IMG/VR virus record: IMGVR_UViG_3300023184_000237
Location: 1-42,754 of that record
Reading direction: 5' to 3' (one strand)
From: a virus
DNA length: 42,754 bases
The position numbers and the translations under genes are program-made. The notes beneath the pieces are model-generated. The model was not told where the DNA came from and did no database searches. It worked only from the letters and a program-made list of their open reading frames with translations. Of the stretch, positions 9,410 through 42,504 are shown in pieces. Within the stretch, counting starts at the first letter, position 1. Every line of letters starts with the position of its first letter.

Positions 9410-12400
9410 ATGGCCTTCCCAGTATCACCCACAAATGGACAAGTAACAGTAGTAAACCAGGTATCGTACCAGTATTCTAGCGCAACCAATTCATGGACTA
9501 GAATTCTTTCTACCGCCAACGTTATCACAGCAAACACCATTGCTGTAAATGGGGCTCTTACTGTAGGCACCACAATCAGTGCTACAGGCAACATTACCGG
9601 TAGTTACTACTTTGGTAATGGTTCACAACTGACCGGTGTTGCGGCTTCCAGTGCTGGCTTTCCAATTTCGGCTGGCAACAGCAGTCTTTCAGCCGTGGCC
9701 AATGGCAATATTTCCGTCAACATCGCCGGAACACCAAACGTGGCTGTATTTGCCACCACAGGCGAATACATCACTGGTGTTCTCAGTGCTAGTGGTACAA
9801 TTACAGGTGGTAACCTGGCCACAGCAGGCACAGCAAGTGCTACTGGTAACGTAACTGGTGGCAACATATTAACCGGCGGATTGGTCTCTGCAACCGGTAC
9901 TGTGACTGGATCAAGTTTCTTGGGTGCAGTGGTCAGTGTGACTGCCAACGTCACAGGTGGCAATATCAACACAGCCGGACTGGTCAGTGCCACAGGCAAC
10001 ATTTATGGCGGAAACTTGATTGTTTCTGGCATTGAATCAGTGACAGGCAACATTGCGGGTGGCAATCTATTGACTGGCGGCGTTGTCAGTGCCACTGGCA
10101 CAATTACAAGTGCTGCCAACGTTGCAGGTGGCAACTTGACCACAGCAGGCCAAGTGAGTGCTACAGCAAACATAACTGGTGGCAACTTGCTCACGGCAGG
10201 ATTGATTTCGGCCACATCAACAATCACATCAGCGGCCAATATCACTGGTGGTAATGTGCTCACAGGTGGTTTGGTATCAGCCACCGGAAATGTAACTGGT
10301 AACTATATTCTTGGTAACGGCTACTTCCTGACAGGTGTAATCACATCTGTGGCCAACATCAACAATGGCACAAGTAATGTGAATATTGCGGCAGCAAATG
10401 CCAACGTCACGGTCAGCGTGAACGGCACATCAAATGTGGCGGTATTTGCCACAACAGGTGAATATATCACCGGTGTACTCAGTGCATCAGGAAATGTGAC
10501 AGGTGGTAACCTGCTCACAGCAGGCCTTGTCAGTGCAACAGCCAATGTAACAGGTGGCAACATCACCACAGCAGGTCAAGTATCGGCAACCGCCAATGTA
10601 ACAGGTGGCAATGTATTGACAGGTGGCGTGATTTCAGCCACTGCCAACGTCACAGGTGGCAATTTGGTCACCGCCGGTGTGACACAAACAAATAACCTCA
10701 GTATCACTGGCAACGTAATTGGTAATTTGTTACCCAGTGCCAACGCAACATACAGTCTTGGCGGTCCAGGACAGTACTGGAAAAACTTGTATTTGAGTGG
10801 CAATACTCTCACACTTGGTGATCAATCACTCAGTTCAAATGCCACAGCAATTTTTACTGCTAACAATCTCAGTGCAAACAACGTAACTGCAACCAATGCT
10901 TTGTCAGCCGGCACCACAGTCAGTGCAACAGGCAACGTAATCGGTGGCAACATTACCACAGCAGGTCAAGTGACTGCCACTGCCAACATCACAGGTGGCA
11001 ACGTACTCACAGGTGGATTAGTCTCAGCAACTGCCAACGTGATCGGTGGCAACTTAACCACAGCAGGCCAAGTGTCAGCCACAGCCAACGTCACCGGTGG
11101 TAACGTATTAACGGGTGGTATAGTAAGTGCTACTGCCAACGTAACAGGTGGCAACTTGACAACTGCTGGACAAGTATCGGCCACTGCCAATGTAACCGGT
11201 GGAAACATATTGACTGGTGGATTGATTTCAGCCACTTCCACAATCACTTCATCCGCCAACATTACAGGTGGTAATGTTCTAACTGGTGGTCTGATCAGTG
11301 CAACTGGCACGGTCACAGGATCAAGTTTGCTGGGCTCAGTAGTATCAGTCACAGGCAACGTGACCGGTGGCAACATTACCACAGCAGGTCAAGTATCGGC
11401 CACAGCCAACATCACAGGTGGCAACGTACTAACAGGTGGTTTGATTTCCGCTACATCAACTATCACCAGTGCAGCCAACATCACAGGTGGCAACGTACTC
11501 ACAGGTGGCATCGTGTCAGCCACCGGTAATGCCACATTCGGCAATATCAGCACCAGCGGATCAGGCGGCAATATTTCTGGCGCCAACGTAATTTCTGGTA
11601 CCACACTCAGTGCAACTGCCAACATCACTGGTGGTAACATATTGACTGGTGGACAAATTTCAGCAACTGGCAACATCACAGCAGCCACAGGTTCGTTCTT
11701 TATTGGTAATGGTTCAGCACTGACAGGTGTTACTGCCACAAGTGCTGGCTTCCCAATCACTGCAGGAACCTCAAACATCGCAGCCACTGCCAACGCCAAC
11801 ATTGCAGTCACAGTAGGCGGCACAGCCAATGTGGCAGTATTTGCTACCACAGGTGAATATATTACTGGTGTACTAAGTGCTACAGGTAACGTAACTGGCG
11901 GTAACGTATTAACCGCTGGACTAGTAAGTTCAACTGGTAACATCACTGGCGGTAACGTATTAACTGCTGGCCTGATCAGTGCTACATCAACAATCACAAG
12001 TGCGGCCAACGTCACAGGCGGCAACTTGTTGACAGCAGGTTTGATAAGTGCTACTGCTACTATAACTGGTGGCAACTTGGCCACAGGCGGTACATCAAGT
12101 GCCGCAGGCAACGTAACCGGTGGTAATGTACTCACAGCAGGATTAATATCTGCCACAGGTAACGTAACTGGTGGCAACATTCTAAACAACGGATTGATTT
12201 CCAGTTCGGGCAACAGTACTGCAGGAAACTATCTAACTGGCGGATTGATATCCGCAACTGGCAACTTAAATGCTGGTAACGTAAACACCAACCAACTGCG
12301 TAATGTGTCGGGTAACCTGACCATTGGTGTCACTGCTGGCAACTTGATTTTAGGCCCAAGCGGCAACGTGGTAATGAGTGCCAACACATACATCAACAAC

Positions 12401-26660: not shown

Positions 26661-27296
26661 ATGATTATTGGCATTTGTGGATTTATTGGTTCAGGCAAAG
26701 ATACCATTGCTGATTACCTGGTAAACTTGCATCATTTTCGCAGAGAAAGTTTTGCAAGCACACTAAAAGATGCTGTGAGTCAAGTGTTTGGTTGGGACAG
26801 AACCCTGCTGGAAGGTCGCACCAAGCAAGCACGTGAATGGCGTGAACAAGTGGATCCATGGTGGGCGGAACGCCTACACATACCTACACTAACACCGCGT
26901 TGGATCCTACAATACTGGGGCACAGAAGTATGCAGAGCCGGCTTCCACGATGACATCTGGATTGCCAGCCTAGAAAACAAACTGCGTCACAGCCAGGATG
27001 ATGTGGTGATATCAGACTGCCGCTTTCCCAATGAAATCCGTGCTATCAAAAACGCCGGCGGCCGAGTCATCAGAGTCACTCGTGGTGCAGAACCTGCTTG
27101 GTATGATGCCGCAATGAGTGTAAATCGTGGTGCTAATGGCAACTCAACTTGGGCACTGAGTCAGCGCAAATTGGAAAAATATGGTGTACATGCATCGGAA
27201 ACTGCTTGGGTAGGCACCCGGTTTGACGTGGTACTAGACAACAACGGCACTCTAGATGACTTGTACCAGCAGGTTAAACAACTTGTGGCAAATTAA
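26661..27296 (+). CDS. Deoxynucleoside monophosphate kinase (T4 gp1-like)
   Basis: 211 residues, slightly shorter than T4 gene 1 product. The P-loop GFIGSGKDT is at residues 7-15. Further family features are FASTLKDAVSQVFGWDR, the LQYWGTEVCR segment, a VVISDCRFPNE strand (residues ~115-125) and a VIRVTRG strand. These enzymes phosphorylate dNMPs, including modified ones in phages with altered DNA, to dNDPs for replication. The ribosome site AGGAA is at 26652-26656. A weak promoter, TTGATA at 26624-26629, 16 bp, TTTAAT at 26646-26651, could also serve it. The stop overlaps the stop of the convergent GIY-YIG gene. The context with an exonuclease suggests recycling of host DNA into phage precursors. 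Confidence 0.9.
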   Translation: MIIGICGFIGSGKDTIADYLVNLHHFRRESFASTLKDAVSQVFGWDRTLLEGRTKQAREWREQVDPWWAERLHIPTLTPRWILQYWGTEVCRAGFHDDIWIASLENKLRHSQDDVVISDCRFPNEIRAIKNAGGRVIRVTRGAEPAWYDAAMSVNRGANGNSTWALSQRKLEKYGVHASETAWVGTRFDVVLDNNGTLDDLYQQVKQLVAN

Positions 27297-27946
27297 TTGT
27301 CAGGCTCCAAATCTCCCTTTTTCCAAACACTGTCTGTACGTTGAAGATTTATTTCGCAATTCTTACAGACACTACGCAAATTCTTGAGATCATTGTGTGC
27401 CAAATTTCCATCTACATGGAACACTAACATTTGTGCTGACCATCTAGCTTTGAATCCGCAACAATCGCAACTCATTTTCTTTTTATAACCTGCCGCTTTC
27501 CACCGCGGCACAAACGGTTTTGGATTTTTCTTTTTCTTCAGGCATGCATCACATCTAGTGCGGTAATGTGTTATATCATCCTTGATATAATTTACAGCCA
27601 CAGGTCTTTGTTCACAAACACAGCACAATGATCGTGCAACTTGTTTAGTTGGTTGTTTAACTCGAAGGCCTGATGATCTAGATGACGAGTTATAATAATT
27701 ATCATTGTCTGCTACATCATATAATCCAAGATAGTAATTTTCACGATCTTTTATTTTGCTTGCATCATTTACATATTCAAGAATTTTACGTTCAAAATTT
27801 GCAAGCCCATGTTCTCTTAGAGAACTCCGGAATCGTTTACCTCCACCTATATACCCATCGTCTTCTGATCCAGTATGGGCACCAATGTACTTCATGTTAT
27901 CAATTTTGTTAGTCCATTCATATATGAATCCAGCATATTCGCTCAT
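27293..27946 (-). CDS. GIY-YIG endonuclease with C-terminal HNH/zinc domain
   Basis: 217 residues with AGGAG before ATG 27946. Residues ~5-90 form a GIY-YIG nuclease domain: GFIYEWTN replaces GIYxITN, KYIGAHTG supplies the YIG half, followed by REHGLANFERKILEY and a glutamate in RENYYLGLYD. The C-terminal part is cysteine-rich: CCVCEQRP and CDACLKKK form one zinc-ribbon-like set, then CDCCGF, FHVDGNLAHNDLKNLRSVC and NCEINLQ follow the H-x-DG-N-x-x-x-N-D-L-x-N-L pattern of HNH nucleases. Both halves could cut DNA, or the HNH-like part may only bind it. It lies alone on the minus strand between plus-strand genes, typical of a free-standing homing endonuclease in T4-like phages. Confidence 0.82.
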   Translation of the reverse strand: MSEYAGFIYEWTNKIDNMKYIGAHTGSEDDGYIGGGKRFRSSLREHGLANFERKILEYVNDASKIKDRENYYLGLYDVADNDNYYNSSSRSSGLRVKQPTKQVARSLCCVCEQRPVAVNYIKDDITHYRTRCDACLKKKKNPKPFVPRWKAAGYKKKMSCDCCGFKARWSAQMLVFHVDGNLAHNDLKNLRSVCKNCEINLQRTDSVWKKGDLEPDN

Positions 27947-34695: not shown

Positions 34696-35301
34696 ATGAA
34701 ACCATTTGCCAAATACCTAGCCGAAAGCGAACGTACATACACCTACCGCATCAAGGTAATTGGTGATGTACCTGAAGGCTTTTTCCGAGAACTCGAAGAC
34801 AAGTGTGCTCAGTTTGACGTGGTCAAAATGTCTAAACCAAAGAATACACCAGTTCGCCGAGTGATCCCTGATTTTCCAGCGTTTCCCAATCAGCCAATGA
34901 GCATTGTGGATGTAGAATTCAAATATCCAGCCATTGAGCCACAAATCAAACAACTGGCACAATTGTTGGGTGTAGATCCCAATCGGATTGTTATGAACAC
35001 AGACGGTTATGAAGACAGTCTCAATATTGAAAACAACAAGATTGAAGACGAAAACAAAGACTTGTTGGACTCACCATATCCTGCTCCTGATGCAGAGCAA
35101 CGAGCACTCAAGAAAGACTACGCAACTGGTCCGTACGATCACGAAGTTTTAAAGAATGCATATCGTACTAACTTTACTGTAGCCGGAGGCAAGACTCCTC
35201 CTGCCAAAACCACAAATGAATTGCCAATGGGCAACAAGAGCCCTATGACCACGATCAAGCGTCAACCCCGGCCAGCCACTGGCGCAAACCCAAGAGGCTG
35301 A
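34696..35301 (+). CDS. Putative internal head protein with capsid-targeting-like N-terminus
   Basis: 201 residues. The first residues, MKPFAKYLAE-SERTY, resemble the T4 capsid-targeting sequence MKTYQEFIAE-A, after which the gp21 protease cleaves T4 internal proteins. Residues ~12-110 form a compact alpha/beta domain (YTYRIKVIGDVPEGFFREL, FDVVKMSKPKNTPV, MSIVDVEFKYPAIEPQIKQL, LGVDPNRIVM), a family I recall as recurring in marine T4-like phages without a known function. Residues ~120-201 are disordered and rich in Asn, Lys and Pro (ENNKIEDENKDLLDSPYP and beyond). The predicted role, packaging in the head and possible delivery into the host, is inference. It has its own late element. Confidence 0.7.
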   Translation: MKPFAKYLAESERTYTYRIKVIGDVPEGFFRELEDKCAQFDVVKMSKPKNTPVRRVIPDFPAFPNQPMSIVDVEFKYPAIEPQIKQLAQLLGVDPNRIVMNTDGYEDSLNIENNKIEDENKDLLDSPYPAPDAEQRALKKDYATGPYDHEVLKNAYRTNFTVAGGKTPPAKTTNELPMGNKSPMTTIKRQPRPATGANPRG

Positions 35302-35371: not shown

Positions 35372-36010
35372 ATGACTACTTATCAGCGAATAAACTATCG
35401 TAAAATCTACGAGCAGTACCACGGACCTATACCAAAAGAGCCCAACGGGCGCAGTTATGAAATACATCATAAAGATGGGAATCATACCAATAACAATCCT
35501 ACAAATTTAGTAGCCGTAACTTTACAAGAACATTATGATATACATTATGCTCAAGGTGATTATGGAGCATGTTATATGATGGCATCTCAGCGTATGAATA
35601 GAACTCCAGAAGAAATTGCACAGATTGCCAGTCTTCAACAACAAGCCAGAGTAGCGGCAGGAACACATCACTTATCGGGTGGACAAATACAAAGACGATT
35701 AGTAGCAGAAGGAAAACATCACTTACTAAGTGGCGACATTCAGCGACGAACAGCACTAAAAAGAGCGGCAGAAGGAACACTGCCGGGGCAAGGACCTAAG
35801 AATCCATTCTGGGGCGGTGAAATACAGAGAAAGTTAGTTGCTGAAGGAAAACATCCATTGCAAGGACCTGCTCATAATCTAAATCGTATTAAGAATGGAA
35901 ATCATCCTTCTCAAATTAAAAAAACTTGCCCGCATTGCGGCAAAACTACAAGTACTAATACCTATGCCCAGTGGCATGGTGATAAGTGCAAAGTATCGAA
36001 AGGCGTATAA
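35372..36010 (+). CDS. HNH homing endonuclease with NUMOD3-like repeats
   Basis: 212 residues. The HNH motif is at residues 30-58: EIHHKDGNHTNNNPTNL with His32, His33 and Asn45, then QEHYDIHY (His54, His58). Residues ~93-180 hold repeated GGxIQRRLVAEGKH units of the NUMOD3 DNA-binding type. A C-terminal zinc-finger-like knuckle uses Cys186, Cys189, His202 and Cys206 (CPHCGK, WHGDKC). Such genes cut phage DNA lacking the element and spread by repair; they usually give the phage no structural component. The ribosome site AAAGGGA lies 10 nt before the ATG and inside possible hairpins. Codon use is visibly more AT-rich than in neighbouring virion genes, consistent with a mobile element. Confidence 0.88.
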   Translation: MTTYQRINYRKIYEQYHGPIPKEPNGRSYEIHHKDGNHTNNNPTNLVAVTLQEHYDIHYAQGDYGACYMMASQRMNRTPEEIAQIASLQQQARVAAGTHHLSGGQIQRRLVAEGKHHLLSGDIQRRTALKRAAEGTLPGQGPKNPFWGGEIQRKLVAEGKHPLQGPAHNLNRIKNGNHPSQIKKTCPHCGKTTSTNTYAQWHGDKCKVSKGV

Positions 36011-36037: not shown

Positions 36038-38509
36038 ATGGACAATTTTTTCTACAATCTTAACGACAAGTTGAATAGCATTCGCGAGAAGCCAGAGACC
36101 ACACACAAACAACTCAACGAACGTGACATGAGTCGTGCTGCCAAGGGCTATGAGAAGTATGGCAAAGAGGGCATGGAGGCTTTGGCCAAGGCCGGACGTG
36201 AAGGCAAGAGCCTGGACCCTATACGTGACAAGTACAACAAGTATAAAGATTCCGTAGAAGAAGCCTCGGGTGATTATTCAGCCAAGAAGGCACGTGCCGG
36301 CCGAGACATTGGCAAGCCAGGCAAGAACTTTGAAAAGATTGCCAAGGATGCTGGCCAGCGTTATGGTTCAAAAGCAGCCGGTGAGCGTGTGGCAGGTGCT
36401 GTGCTGAACAAATTGCGTCATCCCAAAGAAGGCATGGGCGACGTAGTGAAAAAAGTTGGCAGTGCAGTTAAGAAAGTTGGCGGCGCTGTGTTAAACAAAT
36501 TAGGCCATGGTGACGATCAAGCCATGCGCAAAGACTTACAACGCAAGATGGGCATGCCACAAACAGGTAAGAAGCCAGAACAAGTTAAAGAAAAAATGTC
36601 ACCGGCTAAATCACAAAGTTTTGCCGCCTTGGCACCTCCCAAAGACAAAATTACTTTTGCTGACAAGATTGCCGGCGCTAAAAAAGAAGTTGATGAAATG
36701 TTGGGCGATGTGGCTGCTGAAGCAATCAAAGGTGTGCTCAGTCCCAAGCAAAAGAAAATCGACATGAACAAGAATGGCCGACTAGATGCCAACGACTTTG
36801 CTATGCTACGTGGTGGCAAGACCAGCAACGGCGGCACAGTTACCAAGACCAAGACAGGTATGAAGCACTCTGCAGGTCCAGGCCGATACGGCGGATCAGA
36901 CGAAGAATCCCATGTGGTTGATCGTCTCAAAGGTCCAAGCACAAAGAATCTGACAGGTAAACAAGAGACCGACGAAGGCTGGGACGAAATGGAAAAAGAC
37001 GTCAAGAGCCGTATGGGTGCTCGTAAGGTTGGTGACGTCACACACGGTGACAAACATGACACACAAGAGATTCCTGGCGGTCGCAGAGTAACACGCCGTG
37101 TTGATCCCAACACAGGTTATTCAGTAGGTGCCGATAGTGATGAGCCAGCCGCAGGTGAAAAGCGCGGACGTGGTCGTCCAAAAGGCCCTGCTAAAGCACC
37201 AGAGCGTGTGACCGGCCGGGCTACCAAACACAAAGGCGGTCGTAAAACCAACGAAGGTGATCTTGAAATTACAGATCGTGGCGAGTACGATCAAGAAGGC
37301 GAAATGGCCAAAGATGACATCAAGACTATTGTGCGTCATGCACAGGCCTTGGAAAAAATCCTGGGTGACAACGACAACTTGCCAGAATGGGTGCAAGCCA
37401 AGTTGGCCAAGATTGAAGGCATGATGACTGCTGTGGATGACTACATGCAGAATCAAGAGGGTGATGACGAAATGGCCATGGGCGAAGAAAAAACTTCTAC
37501 TCGTGACAACCGCGCTGAACGAGCCGGCCGCAAGGTAACCAAAGACATTGAGTATGATGAGAAAAAGAAAGATCATATTCACGGCAAGAAGCGTGGCAGT
37601 GAAGATGCTAAGGCAGAAAAAGCCGGCAAGAAAGTGGCTAAAGACATTGAGTACGATGAAAAGAAAAAGAAAGTCAAAGAAGCAGGCGGAACAGACACTC
37701 CCACAGCATCAAGTGGTTTTGGTTTTGGACAAGGCATTTATGATTCAATGAATCGTGAACTTGAAAGCATGATTGCTGAAAGTATGAATGTTAGCATGAG
37801 CATGAACACAGATGCCAACGGTGGTCCAAGCAAGAGCATAACTGTTACTGCTACAGATGATGACGCACTCAAACTAGGCGAGTTGTTGAAAAACGCCGGC
37901 CTAGGCGGACATGATTACCCACACATTGAAGGTGGTGCTGATATGGATCATCCAGGTGCTATCGAAGTAAATGGCACAATGGATGCTGAAGGTGCAGAAG
38001 CACTTGCTGATAAAATTCGCCAGGCCATGGGCGACCATGATCACGCAGAAGGCGAAGTATGCGATGCCTGTGGTCAAGAAGACTGCGGTTGCGAAGAAGT
38101 TGACGAAGCCTACGGCGATGACGCAGTGAGCCAAAACTCACCTGACTTCCCGAGCAACACTGAAACCAATGATGATTCACTACAATATTCCGGTGGCCTA
38201 AACGGTCCCAAGTCAACTGGTCAAACAACTATACCTGTTGTTGCCAGTCAAGATGACAGACAAAAAGGTTATGGAGATGGATTTGATGAAGACAGCCTAG
38301 CACGTTTGCGTGAAATGGCCGGGATCCGTGAAGCCAAGAAAGATGTTGAAGAAGAAAAAACTGAAGAAGGTAATCTTTTTACCGGCAACTTAGCCAAGGC
38401 CCGTGCTGATGGCAAAAAAGAAGCCGACTTAGATGGCGACGGTGACATGGAAAAAGTCAAAGAAAGCATTCGTGATTTGACACGTCGTTGGAACCAATTC
38501 AAAGGATAA
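36038..38509 (+). CDS. Large charged head-associated protein candidate with AT-hook and EF-hand-like motifs (823 aa)
   Basis: 823 residues, strongly Lys/Glu/Asp/Gly-rich, largely disordered or helical. The N-terminus (FFYNLNDKLNSIREKP, then GYEKYGKEGMEALAKAGREG) recurs in marine T4-like phages, from memory. An EF-hand or dockerin-like loop DMNKNGRLDANDF is encoded near 36760-36800, and a second Asp-rich loop DLDGDGDMEKVKE near the C-terminus. KRGRGRPKGPAKAP (near 37160) is a canonical AT-hook for minor-groove DNA binding. Two near-repeats of AGKKVxKDIEYDEKKK lie at ~37530-37670, and CDACGQEDCGCEE at ~38065-38095 may bind metal. An I-A-E-S site at 37772-37783 fits the T4 prohead protease consensus. 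A scaffold or DNA-associated internal head role is plausible but unproven. Confidence 0.75.
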   Translation: MDNFFYNLNDKLNSIREKPETTHKQLNERDMSRAAKGYEKYGKEGMEALAKAGREGKSLDPIRDKYNKYKDSVEEASGDYSAKKARAGRDIGKPGKNFEKIAKDAGQRYGSKAAGERVAGAVLNKLRHPKEGMGDVVKKVGSAVKKVGGAVLNKLGHGDDQAMRKDLQRKMGMPQTGKKPEQVKEKMSPAKSQSFAALAPPKDKITFADKIAGAKKEVDEMLGDVAAEAIKGVLSPKQKKIDMNKNGRLDANDFAMLRGGKTSNGGTVTKTKTGMKHSAGPGRYGGSDEESHVVDRLKGPSTKNLTGKQETDEGWDEMEKDVKSRMGARKVGDVTHGDKHDTQEIPGGRRVTRRVDPNTGYSVGADSDEPAAGEKRGRGRPKGPAKAPERVTGRATKHKGGRKTNEGDLEITDRGEYDQEGEMAKDDIKTIVRHAQALEKILGDNDNLPEWVQAKLAKIEGMMTAVDDYMQNQEGDDEMAMGEEKTSTRDNRAERAGRKVTKDIEYDEKKKDHIHGKKRGSEDAKAEKAGKKVAKDIEYDEKKKKVKEAGGTDTPTASSGFGFGQGIYDSMNRELESMIAESMNVSMSMNTDANGGPSKSITVTATDDDALKLGELLKNAGLGGHDYPHIEGGADMDHPGAIEVNGTMDAEGAEALADKIRQAMGDHDHAEGEVCDACGQEDCGCEEVDEAYGDDAVSQNSPDFPSNTETNDDSLQYSGGLNGPKSTGQTTIPVVASQDDRQKGYGDGFDEDSLARLREMAGIREAKKDVEEEKTEEGNLFTGNLAKARADGKKEADLDGDGDMEKVKESIRDLTRRWNQFKG

Positions 38510-38512
38510 TAT

Positions 38513-38686
38513 ATGACAACCAATCAACCTTTTACCGCAGGCCTAACAACACCTCCAGTGATGAACCCACACAGTCCAGCCACTGGTGGTTACAAACAAC
38601 AACCGGTATACATTCCGGGTGTGTTGGATCAAACACGCAACTTGTTTCAACCAGTTGTGAGTGAACCACCTAAGGATACAAAATAA
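38513..38686 (+). CDS. Small proline-rich protein (57 aa)
   Basis: ATG 38513 follows the stop of the 823-residue gene by 3 nt, with AAAGGA at 38501-38506 as ribosome site; the TAA stop overlaps the next ATG (TAATG). The protein is polar and proline-rich (FTAGLTTPPVMNPHSPATGG, then YIPGVLDQTRNLFQPVV) with no recognised domain. The tight coupling on both sides argues that it is a real gene. Possibly a minor virion peptide; no function can be assigned. Confidence 0.65.
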   Translation: MTTNQPFTAGLTTPPVMNPHSPATGGYKQQPVYIPGVLDQTRNLFQPVVSEPPKDTK

Positions 38687-39012
38687 TGGCTGCCGTTCAA
38701 GTTGTTAACACTGGATCAAACGTTCTTTGGACCACCGACAAGGTTGAAATTGCCACGACTCTTGCTACAGTAAATTTTCAAGTTATTCAAACACAGACAC
38801 AATACATACAGGCCAATGGTATTCCTGTAAATACTTCAATGCCAACTGGCAACTTATACGCAAATTCAGTTGTGGTTCCAGGAAACACTGTACAACAATA
38901 TTATGTTGGTGCAGGCAATTATCTGAGCATCACTGGCACTGTGTTTTCTGCCACAGCAATAGGTACTGCTACATCAGCACAGGCCGGTGTGTACGGCTCA
39001 ACTTCAAACTAA
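38686..39012 (+). CDS. Small putative virion protein (108 aa)
   Basis: 108 residues, translationally coupled to the 57-residue gene (TAATG). The composition is Thr/Val/Asn/Ala-rich with few charges, typical of beta-rich phage surface proteins: VQVVNTGSNVLWTTDKVEIA, NGIPVNTSMPTGNLYANSVV, VQQYYVGAGNYLSITGTVFS. No signal peptide or membrane helix. It might be a head decoration or fibre-associated protein; the asparagine- and glycine-rich style resembles the fibre genes at the left of the window. No named family recognised. Confidence 0.7.
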   Translation: MAAVQVVNTGSNVLWTTDKVEIATTLATVNFQVIQTQTQYIQANGIPVNTSMPTGNLYANSVVVPGNTVQQYYVGAGNYLSITGTVFSATAIGTATSAQAGVYGSTSN

Positions 39013-39014
39013 CA

Positions 39015-39401
39015 ATGCGAGCCTGTGAGTTCATGACTGAAGGCGCTGGTAAGCGTGGCGGAACAAGAGCCGCCGCCAGCCACGAGTTTGAACGAGCACA
39101 TCCTGGTATAGTTGGTCCTGGGGGCAAGGGAGACGTATATTGGGGCCGGTATTACGATCATTATCGTGTGGCAACATTGGCTGGTATGGATCTTGAGCAG
39201 TTGGAAAAAGCAGGCGATATAAATTTCTTTGGAAACTTGCCCATCTTCAGCGCCTACACTGAACACGATCGCAAAAAACTCACTGCCATTATGAAAAAAC
39301 TGGGTATGAAACCCCAAGATTCTATCAGCAACGGTAGTCATGAACCTGACTACGTCAATCACTCAAGCCCAGTGGCCGCCTTCAAGGGCTACAAAAAATA
39401 A
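39015..39401 (+). CDS. MRAxEF-family protein 1, putative internal head protein
   Basis: 128 residues, 2 nt after the preceding stop. It begins MRACEFMTE-GAG, close to the T4 capsid-targeting pattern (MKTYQEFIAE-A). The rest shares a scheme with the proteins at 40279 and 40671: a Y-x-x-Y-R hydrophobic strand (DHYRVATLAGMD), an aromatic-D helix (YTEHDRKKLTAIMKKLG), an S-x-E segment (NGSHEPDYVNH) and the end SSPVAAFKGYKK. I know of similar unnamed families in marine T4-like phages. Head packaging and injection is a hypothesis based on the N-terminus. Confidence 0.75.
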   Translation: MRACEFMTEGAGKRGGTRAAASHEFERAHPGIVGPGGKGDVYWGRYYDHYRVATLAGMDLEQLEKAGDINFFGNLPIFSAYTEHDRKKLTAIMKKLGMKPQDSISNGSHEPDYVNHSSPVAAFKGYKK

Positions 39402-39403
39402 TC

Positions 39404-40282
39404 ATGTGCGTAATCCTTGCCAAATACTTTGATGGTATTGGATGGGCCGGCGCCAAAAATCGCGACCGTAACTACACCCCTGTGTTGGATTTTGTTGAAG
39501 ACAAAAGCCACGACGTACAACGCATGATGATGCATGATCAAATAACTGGCTACAAAGAAGGCATCAACAATCATGGCATTAGCATCTTGAATACTAGTCT
39601 AGATGTATACGATGACGAAAGTGAAGTCGAAGCAGGCACCGCAGAAATCAGTCCTGACGGCCAAATAATTGCCCGGGCATTAACACAACATTCAGTAGCA
39701 GACGCTGTTCGAGTTCTACTAAAAGGAAAACTAGGCGGTTGTACAATTGTGTTTGATCAATACAAACTGTATCTAATCGAAGCCAGTGATTGGGATGGTG
39801 AACGGCCGTTTAAGTACGTGGTCAAACAAATCCCACGTACAGACACAGTGGCTAGAACCAATCATGGAATTTGGATGACTGACACAGGATACCAACGTAA
39901 CCCCAGTAATCGAAGCGAAACACTCAGCAGAATTTCAAGCGAAACCAGACTTGCATTGGCTGAAGCAGTGGTGGCTATTGCCGAAGAACCTGAAGATTTA
40001 GTGGACGGTATGTGCCAGGTGTATATAAACAATCCGCAACTAAATATAATGCGGACCAGCACAGAAGGCAAAAAAATGCGAACTACTAGTCAGCAGTTGT
40101 GTGTGCCTCGAGAGCGAACACTATATTGCCGCCCAGTTAGCAGTCATTTGCAATTTGACTTCTGGGGATTGAATCAACCCAACACTGATGTTTGGGTAGA
40201 AATTTTGAGCAATCGCGCACTGTGGCAGAATACCCAAGGTGATCCACCTTTTGGGCATATGAAAATGAAAGACGTCAAATGA
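39404..40282 (+). CDS. Ntn-hydrolase-like protein (C45/C59 type)
   Basis: 292 residues. The start MCVILAKYF places Cys2 at the mature N-terminus after Met removal, the nucleophile arrangement of N-terminal nucleophile hydrolases. AKNRDRNY (Asn19, Arg20, Asp21, Arg22), GINNHGISILNTSL and ARTNHGI (residues 150-156) match the acyl-CoA:6-aminopenicillanate acyltransferase (C45) and choloylglycine hydrolase group, which cleave or form linear amide bonds. The phage substrate is unknown; an acyl-homoserine lactone, a peptide or a host small amide are possible. It lies 2 nt after one MRAxEF gene and overlaps the next by ATGA, so it is part of the same operon. It has no capsid-targeting N-terminus itself. 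Confidence 0.8.
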   Translation: MCVILAKYFDGIGWAGAKNRDRNYTPVLDFVEDKSHDVQRMMMHDQITGYKEGINNHGISILNTSLDVYDDESEVEAGTAEISPDGQIIARALTQHSVADAVRVLLKGKLGGCTIVFDQYKLYLIEASDWDGERPFKYVVKQIPRTDTVARTNHGIWMTDTGYQRNPSNRSETLSRISSETRLALAEAVVAIAEEPEDLVDGMCQVYINNPQLNIMRTSTEGKKMRTTSQQLCVPRERTLYCRPVSSHLQFDFWGLNQPNTDVWVEILSNRALWQNTQGDPPFGHMKMKDVK

Positions 40283-40674
40283 GAGCAAAAGAATTTGTAG
40301 TAGAAGCAAAGTTTGGCAGTGCCCAGGACATTCCTGCAGATTCTAAAAAACTTCCAAAATCACATGCTTCAGCTATGAAAGGCATGATCAGCATGCCTGA
40401 CATTTCAATGACCAAACAAGGCGGCAGTCCTTACACACAATGGCGTTTTGGTATTGCCATGGCTGGTGCTCCTGACTATCCTACTGAACCTGCTGGCGCA
40501 TTTGCAGGTGACCCGTTGTTGGCAACCTACAGTGATGTTGATCTAGACATAATTAATGCGGCAGCAAAAACTGTAGGTGCCGGTGAAGTCAAAAAATTAA
40601 CCGACAATCGCAGTACCGAAGCCGAGCACGTACACAAAGCAAGCCCAGTTCGAGCATTTGGAGGATACAAATGA
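40279..40674 (+). CDS. MRAxEF-family protein 2, putative internal head protein
   Basis: 131 residues, coupled to the Ntn-hydrolase by ATGA. N-terminus MRAKEFVVE-AKFG resembles the T4 capsid-targeting sequence with a V-x-E-A cleavage-like site. The core has YTQWRFGIAMAGAP, TYSDVDLDIINAAAKTVG, and the end NRSTEAEHVHKASPVRAFGG. It aligns by eye with 39015 and 40671 over the whole length except for variable loops, so these are paralogues. No catalytic motif is visible. Confidence 0.75.
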   Translation: MRAKEFVVEAKFGSAQDIPADSKKLPKSHASAMKGMISMPDISMTKQGGSPYTQWRFGIAMAGAPDYPTEPAGAFAGDPLLATYSDVDLDIINAAAKTVGAGEVKKLTDNRSTEAEHVHKASPVRAFGGYK

Positions 40675-41051
40675 GAGCCCGAGAATTCATCACTGAACAA
40701 GCAACATTGCCTCCTGAACTGGCAGATCCCATGAATCATGTGTTTGTGTTGCCCGGTGTGCCATCCAGTGACCCGTATAAGATATATCGCTTGGGAGTGG
40801 CCATGGCTCGAGCCCGCAGTGATGCCGGCACTAACGATCCCATACCCAACATGCCTGAGTGGTCAGCACAAGCCGCATTTGGCGAAGACGCTGTGGTTGC
40901 TGGATTTAATGCTTCAGTTGAACCAATCATTGATCAAGCATTGAAAATGTCCGGATTGTCTGCTGAAAAAATACAAATCAGTACCCCAAATAGTTTAGAA
41001 CCACCTTCGGTAAACAAACAAAGCACAGTCAAGCCGTTTAACGGTTATTAA
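40671..41051 (+). CDS. MRAxEF-family protein 3, putative internal head protein
   Basis: 126 residues, coupled to protein 2 by ATGA. N-terminus MRAREFITE-QATL is the closest of the three to T4's EFIAE-A. The core follows the family: YKIYRLGVAMARARSDAG, VEPIIDQALKMSGL, NSLEPPSVNKQSTVKPFNGY. The tandem arrangement with overlapping start/stop suggests duplication followed by strong divergence. Function unknown; virion packaging is inferred from the N-terminus. Confidence 0.75.
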   Translation: MRAREFITEQATLPPELADPMNHVFVLPGVPSSDPYKIYRLGVAMARARSDAGTNDPIPNMPEWSAQAAFGEDAVVAGFNASVEPIIDQALKMSGLSAEKIQISTPNSLEPPSVNKQSTVKPFNGY

Positions 41052-41688: not shown

Positions 41689-42504
41689 ATGAAAAAACTC
41701 ATCTTTGTGCTGTTGCTCACAGCCGTTAACTTGGCCCACGCCTGGGACCAACGAGCCCCTAACCCCCCACAAGCCTGTGCAGTACACTCACCTTATGGAT
41801 TTGCCACAGTCAAACGACCTGTGCAACCCATTTGCCGCGAAGCGTATCTTGTGGCATATGATGCTCCTGTAAAGATTCCTGCTTATGTGGCCTACACATT
41901 GTTACCGCAAAACGCACTGGGTTGTTTTCCGCGTACCAATGCCTTTGTTGCTGATCAAAGCGTCCAGGGTGGTGCCCGACCAGATGACTATGCTGGCACA
42001 GGCTATGACAAAGGACATGCCGCTCCTGATGGTGACCTATCCTGGTCAGCACAAGTGGAATATGAATCATTCTTGATGACCAATATGTATCCGCAACACG
42101 GATCACTCAATCGTGGTATTTGGAAACTGTTGGAAACAAGTGTGCGTGGTTGGGCAGTACAACTCAATCAACCCTACACAATCTATGTAGGTGCGTTCTA
42201 CGGTGCCGGTGATGAGTCAATTGGCAACGGCGTCGTTGTGCCACACGGCTTTTACAAAATTGTAATCAATAACCAAACTAAGCAGATTGCTGGTTGGGCA
42301 TTCCCACATACCAAACCCTATGTTAATTTAGGCAATGACTTGACCAAGTTCCGACTGCCAGTTAGCCAAATTGAAATCACAGCCGGTGTTAAATTTGCTT
42401 ACCCAGCAGGTGCTCGAGAACTACAACCAGGTCAGGAATGGCCAGTGGACTACGGTGCTCTCACCAATGCCAAACGTGCCAAGTGTGGTCGCAATGCGGA
42501 ATAA
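41689..42504 (+). CDS. Secreted DNA/RNA non-specific endonuclease (NUC1 family)
   Basis: 271 residues. A clear signal peptide MKKLIFVLLLTAVNLAHA ends with an A-x-A cleavage site (Ala16-His17-Ala18), so the product should reach the periplasm or the outside. The catalytic motif of the Serratia nuclease family is present as Asp107-Lys108-Gly109-His110 (YDKGHAAPDGD; usually DRGH), with His110 as general base. Downstream NMYPQHGSLNRGIWKLLE contains the metal-binding Asn141, with Trp145 and Glu149 as in the family. These enzymes cut DNA and RNA without sequence preference. Export of a nuclease by a lytic phage is unusual; it could destroy competing DNA outside, salvage nucleotides, or act at lysis. 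It has a perfect late promoter. Confidence 0.92.
   Translation: MKKLIFVLLLTAVNLAHAWDQRAPNPPQACAVHSPYGFATVKRPVQPICREAYLVAYDAPVKIPAYVAYTLLPQNALGCFPRTNAFVADQSVQGGARPDDYAGTGYDKGHAAPDGDLSWSAQVEYESFLMTNMYPQHGSLNRGIWKLLETSVRGWAVQLNQPYTIYVGAFYGAGDESIGNGVVVPHGFYKIVINNQTKQIAGWAFPHTKPYVNLGNDLTKFRLPVSQIEITAGVKFAYPAGARELQPGQEWPVDYGALTNAKRAKCGRNAE

Follow-up and report, generated by a model that had tools for sequence, protein, structure and literature searches.

The three small paralogous proteins encoded between positions 39015 and 41051 of an environmental T4-like phage sequence (IMG/VR record IMGVR_UViG_3300023184_000237; the whole 42,754-base stretch is referred to here as the window) are probably carried inside the head of a large T4-like phage; their common nine-residue start would act as a T4-type capsid-targeting sequence, and their mature forms would be injected. 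This start, MRAxEFIxE, is best explained as a novel version of the T4 capsid-targeting sequence that marks internal, probably injected, proteins. What the sequences show directly is a modular tag whose conservation breaks off sharply at the Glu; the group also encodes a gp21-type protease and a capsid protein with a site of like form. The capsid-targeting interpretation is well supported by sequence but not proven, and from it we infer injection and an effector role. According to the proposed mechanism, M-R-A-x-E-F-[IVLM]-x-E would dock the protein on the prohead core and a gp21-type protease would then cut after the Glu; the mature protein of ~120 amino acids would remain in the head, enter the host with the DNA, and most likely interfere at an early stage with host defence or physiology. 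In relatives, the tag would serve as a delivery module for a wide range of other bodies, to which it is fused.

Layout of the locus and its three paralogs

Four genes, overlapping or nearly touching, occupy positions 39015-41051 on the plus strand, after the tail and head-completion genes. The first (39015-39401) encodes the A-type paralog, a predicted internal head protein of 128 amino acids starting with MRACEFMTE|GAGKRGG; cleavage is predicted after Glu9 of the putative capsid-targeting tag MRACEFMTE (39015-39041), which would leave a mature protein of 119 amino acids with a pI of 9.3. It is followed by a gene for an Ntn-type hydrolase without the tag (39404-40282; 292 amino acids, starting MCVILAKYFDG), by that for the B-type paralog (40279-40674; 131 amino acids, MRAKEFVVE|AKFGS, predicted tag MRAKEFVVE at 40279-40305), the start of which overlaps the hydrolase stop (ATGA), and by that for a third paralog (40671-41051; 126 amino acids, MRAREFITE|QATLP, predicted tag MRAREFITE at 40671-40697). 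A small protein is encoded 2 nt upstream of 39015 (38686-39012, plus strand), and its gene occupies the same place in several relatives; from this gene onward, the intergenic gaps are 2 nt and 2 nt, followed by two ATGA overlaps. An earlier note on this DNA had described three consecutive small proteins with the starts MRACEFMTE-G, MRAKEFVVE-A, and MRAREFITE-Q. The starts are as described, but the genes are not strictly consecutive because the hydrolase separates the first from the second.

The three paralogs share ~30% pairwise identity and resemble one another at the two ends as well as centrally (YR.G.AMA), with S[PT]VxxFxGY near the C-terminus conserved in all of them. The alignment of the 40671 family contains a second near-invariant element close to the C-terminus, S-x-E ~8 residues before S-P-V-x-x-F-K-G-Y, which is nearly as conserved as the tag and might serve as a further site of processing or docking. 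No convincing Pfam, PHROGs, or NCBIfam match was obtained for any of the three, and no sequence similarity to the bodies of T4 IPI-IPIII; nor did they contain a recognizable effector domain. Deposited phages yielded no homolog of the 40671 protein and none of one other paralog. The predicted fold comprises three helices, at low confidence (pTM 0.47). Head-shell genes were not found in the window, which is apparently a partial contig, and the protease and capsid protein data presented below are from relatives.

A gene for a DNA/RNA non-specific endonuclease (41689-42504; PF01223, E = 8.8e-37), the product of which has a signal-peptide-like start, lies just downstream of the cassette in the window and in several related contigs. 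ORFs resembling HNH and GIY-YIG homing endonucleases, by sequence appearance only, lie amid structural genes (35372-36010 and 27293-27946).

The tag recurs on unrelated proteins

When related phages were searched for the MRAxEFxxE start, as previously suggested, it recurred on unrelated bodies: among the matches listed, from pooled loci of uncultured relatives, MR(A)xEF[ILMV]xE begins 278 distinct ORFs in ~38 sequence-unrelated body clusters (BLAST), of which a few singletons may be chance matches and some could be merged by remote homology (loci L020 and L330 are one contig and were counted once). Judged by this distribution, the MRAxEFIxE start is a modular N-terminal tag. The corresponding DNA pattern was present in at least 120 stretches in all of IMG/VR versus 19 in total for a scrambled motif, many of the latter lying within longer frames or being repeat copies of one gene. 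Of the pattern matches listed, 93 of 96 begin an ORF of at least 50 amino acids; for all loci of the IMG/VR scan the figure is 143 of 148, again among the matches listed. A slightly wider DNA pattern matched 83 times in 31 contigs that had been picked for containing at least one motif; read backward, it did not match once. Across ~580 kb in four related contigs, a regular expression for such starts retrieved almost only these gene families, plus two more tagged genes; the resemblance of the starts thus exceeds chance. The Glu is usually followed by a small or polar residue (G, D, A, E, N, or S), and tagged genes can occur in runs of up to five within ~8 kb (G024 and G036). The open-access literature searched held no description of the MRAxEFIxE motif.

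The T4 relative RB68 provided a positive control. The equivalent ten-residue pattern picked out only two of its genes, 61.1 and the one for Ip4, which is annotated as an internal virion protein. The similarity of Ip4 to most other internal-protein families is confined to its first 13-32 residues (PHROGs), and by this measure it shows the same modular behavior as the tagged proteins. Both features of T4-type capsid targeting, a short leader ending in hydrophobic-x-Glu and the sharing of that leader by proteins with otherwise unrelated bodies, were found in the tagged proteins.

Some tagged proteins are very small (L160, ~11640-11838, minus strand; L170, 7400-7597, minus strand; L189, 95-331), and their sequence after the Glu resembles the start of the phage's own mature capsid protein (FIKE|NASVGATSSGSVATV in L160 and L170, YLKE|NASAGSTAAGNIATL in the capsid protein). 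The post-Glu sequence of RB68 61.1 (L335, 952-1116) apparently resembles the mature start of gp23; PHROGs places the L170 protein and 61.1 in different families, so a copying of the capsid protein start by such small proteins is noted as an observation and taken no further.

Conservation ends at the glutamate

Within the paralog family (n = 210), mean pairwise identity was ~0.8 at residues 1-9 and 0.1-0.3 at residues 10-21; conservation is high through residue 9 and at background level from residue 10. Because this first family set had been chosen by means of the motif, the boundary was retested with a profile of the body only and with loci fetched by other genes. The profile lacking the N-terminus retrieved 225 ORFs, of which 219 were tagged, 2 were truncated, and 4 kept hydrophobic-x-Glu; in two of these four variants the Glu is shifted by an insertion (MRASEFISAQLME and MRAREFVSAVLSE), and the other two are conservative (MRINELLTE and VKIRDLLIE). 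In the loci fetched via other genes rather than the motif, every intact paralog carried the tag.

These data bear on the notion that MRAxEFIxE is a conserved N-terminal helix that has another role, such as docking a different partner, and is never cleaved. The motif was found in none of the isolates examined (there was no convincing case of the tag in nine related jumbo isolates), which is compatible with such a role and also counts against the capsid-targeting reading. However, conservation is lost right past the Glu, the shifted variants preserve hydrophobic-x-Glu and not the residue number, and the start agrees with the N-terminal sites of the capsid protein and the protease; we consider an uncleaved helix quite improbable. 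Hardly credible at all is that the likeness of the N-termini reflects a nucleotide feature, that is, a translation initiation element, or ancestry within a single family, instead of a protein signal. Although every match sits at a start codon, the codons at the fixed tag residues are synonymous and vary freely, and therefore the constraint acts on the peptide. This already largely refutes a nucleotide feature, and the tagged ORFs are moreover spread over 38 body clusters and include some with GTG starts.

Protease and processing sites of the group

The earlier note had made its proposal hinge on the presence of a gp21-like protease. Such a protease (PF03420) is absent from the window, as a partial contig, but was found in 5 of 23 close relatives, a set that includes many fragments, and, among the motif contigs from the pattern scan, in each of the seven that measure at least 150 kb; an example is that at 61613-62251 of contig G018. 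A gp23-type capsid protein was found in 10 of the 23 close relatives. In the capsid protein alignment, the T4-type site FLTE|A is matched by YLKE|N in this group, and the PA5oct and SCTP-2 counterparts are FLVE|N and MLKE|S. By alignment, YLKE|N is the putative processing site of the group's capsid protein; the group's own proteases start with YL[RK]E or a similar site. The tag N-termini are of the same form as these capsid protein and protease sites, and the leader site thus agrees with the alignment-derived capsid processing site of the group. Predicted candidate substrate peptides for the protease are MRAREFITEQATL and TRRYLKENASSG. Related contigs encode capsid proteins that share ~50-61% identity with those of RaK2, 121Q, GAP32, SCTP-2, and PA5oct, which assigns the group to a T4-like, jumbo-type lineage.

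In T4, gp21 cleaves after L/I-x-E and has a LIE-9 site near its own start; the first 10 residues suffice for head targeting, with residues 4 and 7 being important for targeting and residues 8 and 10 for processing (PMC9026906). The T4 leader residues 7, 8, and 10 (F, I, and E) are retained in MRAxEFIxE, whereas Y4, involved in targeting, is without clear counterpart.

The capsid-targeting reading of the earlier note has gained from the gp21-type protease in the group, the form of the capsid site, the motif on unrelated bodies, and the RB68 control; where it lost ground is the Glu of a further protein that had been said to fit as well. This conserved virion structural protein (34696-35301, plus strand; 201 amino acids, MKPFAKYLAE|S) starts with MKPFAKYLAE or close to it in this group, and it is a virion protein by homology: its PA5oct homolog, EST35_0202, was detected by ESI-MS/MS as a virion protein, as was the product of the gene after it, and the PA5oct gene order resembles that of the window block. 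However, the Glu is missing from the starts of the homologs in isolates (MKSFRDYYDAS in PA5oct and MKNFYEYLSSV in Phosso). A cleaved tag on this protein is possible in this group only.

At the place corresponding to that of the PA5oct virion protein EST35_0203, the window encodes a charged protein of 823 amino acids (36038-38509) with a weak dockerin/EF-hand match. Among four PA5oct ORFs with the same nine-residue layout, two are MS-detected, which is not significant; these start with MKINDIITE (at the gp67 position) and MKIKDILVE. The rare tag variants MRINELLTE and VKIRDLLIE (in L181 and L100) resemble these two starts, and it is possible that they bridge two leader types.

Nature of the tagged cargo

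Among the bodies bearing the tag are an ADP-ribosyltransferase (PF03496, E = 9.5e-13), GNAT acetyltransferases (PF00583), GH19 lysozymes, and LRV repeats, along with an ART-PolyVal match just under the cut-off. T4 injects an ADP-ribosyltransferase, Alt, that has a leader of this kind. The processing of Alt has been discussed (PMC9026906). By analogy with Alt, ADP-ribosyltransferase, GNAT, GH19, and kinase bodies would be the kind of cargo to expect. Tagged GH19 lysozymes would, however, be unexpected if the tag means only "inside the head", which counts against the best explanation.

Three tagged loci deserve mention in their own right. The product of L290 4470-5591 (minus strand) matches phrog_15752 (phage protein kinase, inhibitor of host transcription; E = 1.2e-6). 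L183 6640-7946 (minus strand) holds two adjacent tagged genes, one a clear PF03496 member and one with an ART-like start (YHATG) and no profile match. In L106 2992-3612, a TAT-like segment (a weak PF10518 match) lies between the tag and a GH19 lysozyme; the protein may possibly be packaged and then exported after injection.

The cargo also helps to weigh whether the paralogs are structural or core head proteins, similar to gp67/gp68, that are sorted and processed by means of the same signal but do not act as injected effectors. That relatives of the third paralog are widespread (56 loci in IMG/VR), with one to several copies of the family per contig and beside structural genes, and that the PA5oct protein at the gp67 position begins MKINDIITE, would suit core proteins. 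On the other hand, copy number and bodies differ between phages, the same tag is borne by enzymes such as the ADP-ribosyltransferase and GNAT proteins, and several tags lie in accessory-looking gene runs (G024, G036, and G031). A core role is possible, though we would not call it likely, and internal head proteins delivered with the DNA remain our preferred reading.

The hydrolase gene accompanies the A-type paralog

Over most of its length, the hydrolase gave a weak but consistent match to the C45 Ntn acyltransferases/hydrolases (NCBIfam C45_proenzyme NF040521, E = 2e-7, 30.7 bits, below the cut-off of 85; PF03417, 16.1, below the cut-off of 23.2), with which it shares an N-terminal Cys. Cys2 is invariant (10 of 10) and, once Met is removed, is the candidate nucleophile. 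Unlike the C45 family, the protein has no pro-segment (Cys is residue 2), scores far below the cut-off, and always adjoins tagged paralogs. Its AlphaFold model was too poor (pLDDT 47), and a PDB fold search gave no usable match. No relatives were found in bacterial and archaeal genomes.

The earlier note had placed an Ntn hydrolase in the same operon, which is right but understated. In all nine loci fetched with the hydrolase, the gene directly upstream of it is an A-type paralog, and all seven A-type genes fetched otherwise, including that of the window, have the hydrolase directly downstream (a contig end cuts two); as one contig is in both sets, 15 distinct contigs agree, so that the hydrolase directly follows the A-type paralog in every contig showing it, and none disagrees. 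The B-type paralog, which also occurs alone, follows the hydrolase wherever the contig continues, and the order A-type/hydrolase/B-type persists at identities as low as 64% and where the outer genes differ. From the constant adjacency of A-type paralog and hydrolase it follows that the pair is inherited as a unit. The enzyme might instead be an unrelated passenger gene inserted between two paralogs: it is missing from most loci with a 40671-type relative (found in 3) and never carries the tag. Against this stand the A-type pairing in both directions and the retention of the B-type neighbor across divergent loci; we regard a passenger as unlikely, and chance insertion was set aside because the pairing is constant.

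Constant pairing and the lack of a tag on the enzyme are the sole basis for a further, equally doubtful proposition, in which the tag would define a modular injected-effector system of a large uncultured T4-like clade and the untagged hydrolase would be carried into the head in trans by the A-type paralog, as a carrier-cargo pair. A hydrolase that needs a free N-terminal Cys would then enter the head via its A-type partner. It may also act on the A-type protein during assembly.

Relation to known systems and significance

The closest parallel is the T4 capsid-targeting sequence of IPI, IPII, IPIII, and Alt: likewise an N-terminal leader of 9-10 residues, ending EFI-x-E in the internal proteins, on unrelated bodies (in Alt an ADP-ribosyltransferase, like one tagged body here), with a gp21-type protease and a capsid protein site of the [LI]xE type. 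The T4 consensus, however, is MKTYxEFIxE (10 residues) and not MRAxEFIxE (9 residues); the tagged phages are a different, uncultured group, nearer to RaK2/PA5oct/121Q by capsid protein; and the tagged bodies are unrelated in sequence to the T4 internal proteins, with their packaging being a prediction. IPI, Ip2, and Ip3 of T-even phages are injected anti-restriction factors directed against GmrSD type IV enzymes (PMC12373910, PMC9391042). T-even internal proteins are also small and diverse, with the leader alone in common; in contrast, the window paralogs are one conserved family with a near-invariant C-terminal SxE...SPVxxFKGY. In the phiKZ-like giant phages, processed proteins of the head and of ejection, SPN3US gp53/gp54 among them, similarly have an N-terminal propeptide with a short motif ending in Glu, and sister proteins with identical N-termini, but their motif is S/A-x-E and the propeptides are mostly long (PMC5694885), compared with hydrophobic-x-Glu and nine residues here.

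Host defences first encounter those phage proteins that are injected, and these are normally identified singly, through their resemblance to T4 proteins or through virion proteomics. As the same tag precedes ~38 unrelated protein types, the injected proteins of such phages may be predictable, and a nine-residue signature would allow the candidate injected repertoire of an abundant uncultured group to be listed from its genomes, with many families of unknown kind beside the enzymes named above. The claim of packaging is thereby reduced to a simple peptide test, and the A-type paralog and hydrolase may exemplify a tagged protein that is inherited together with an untagged one.
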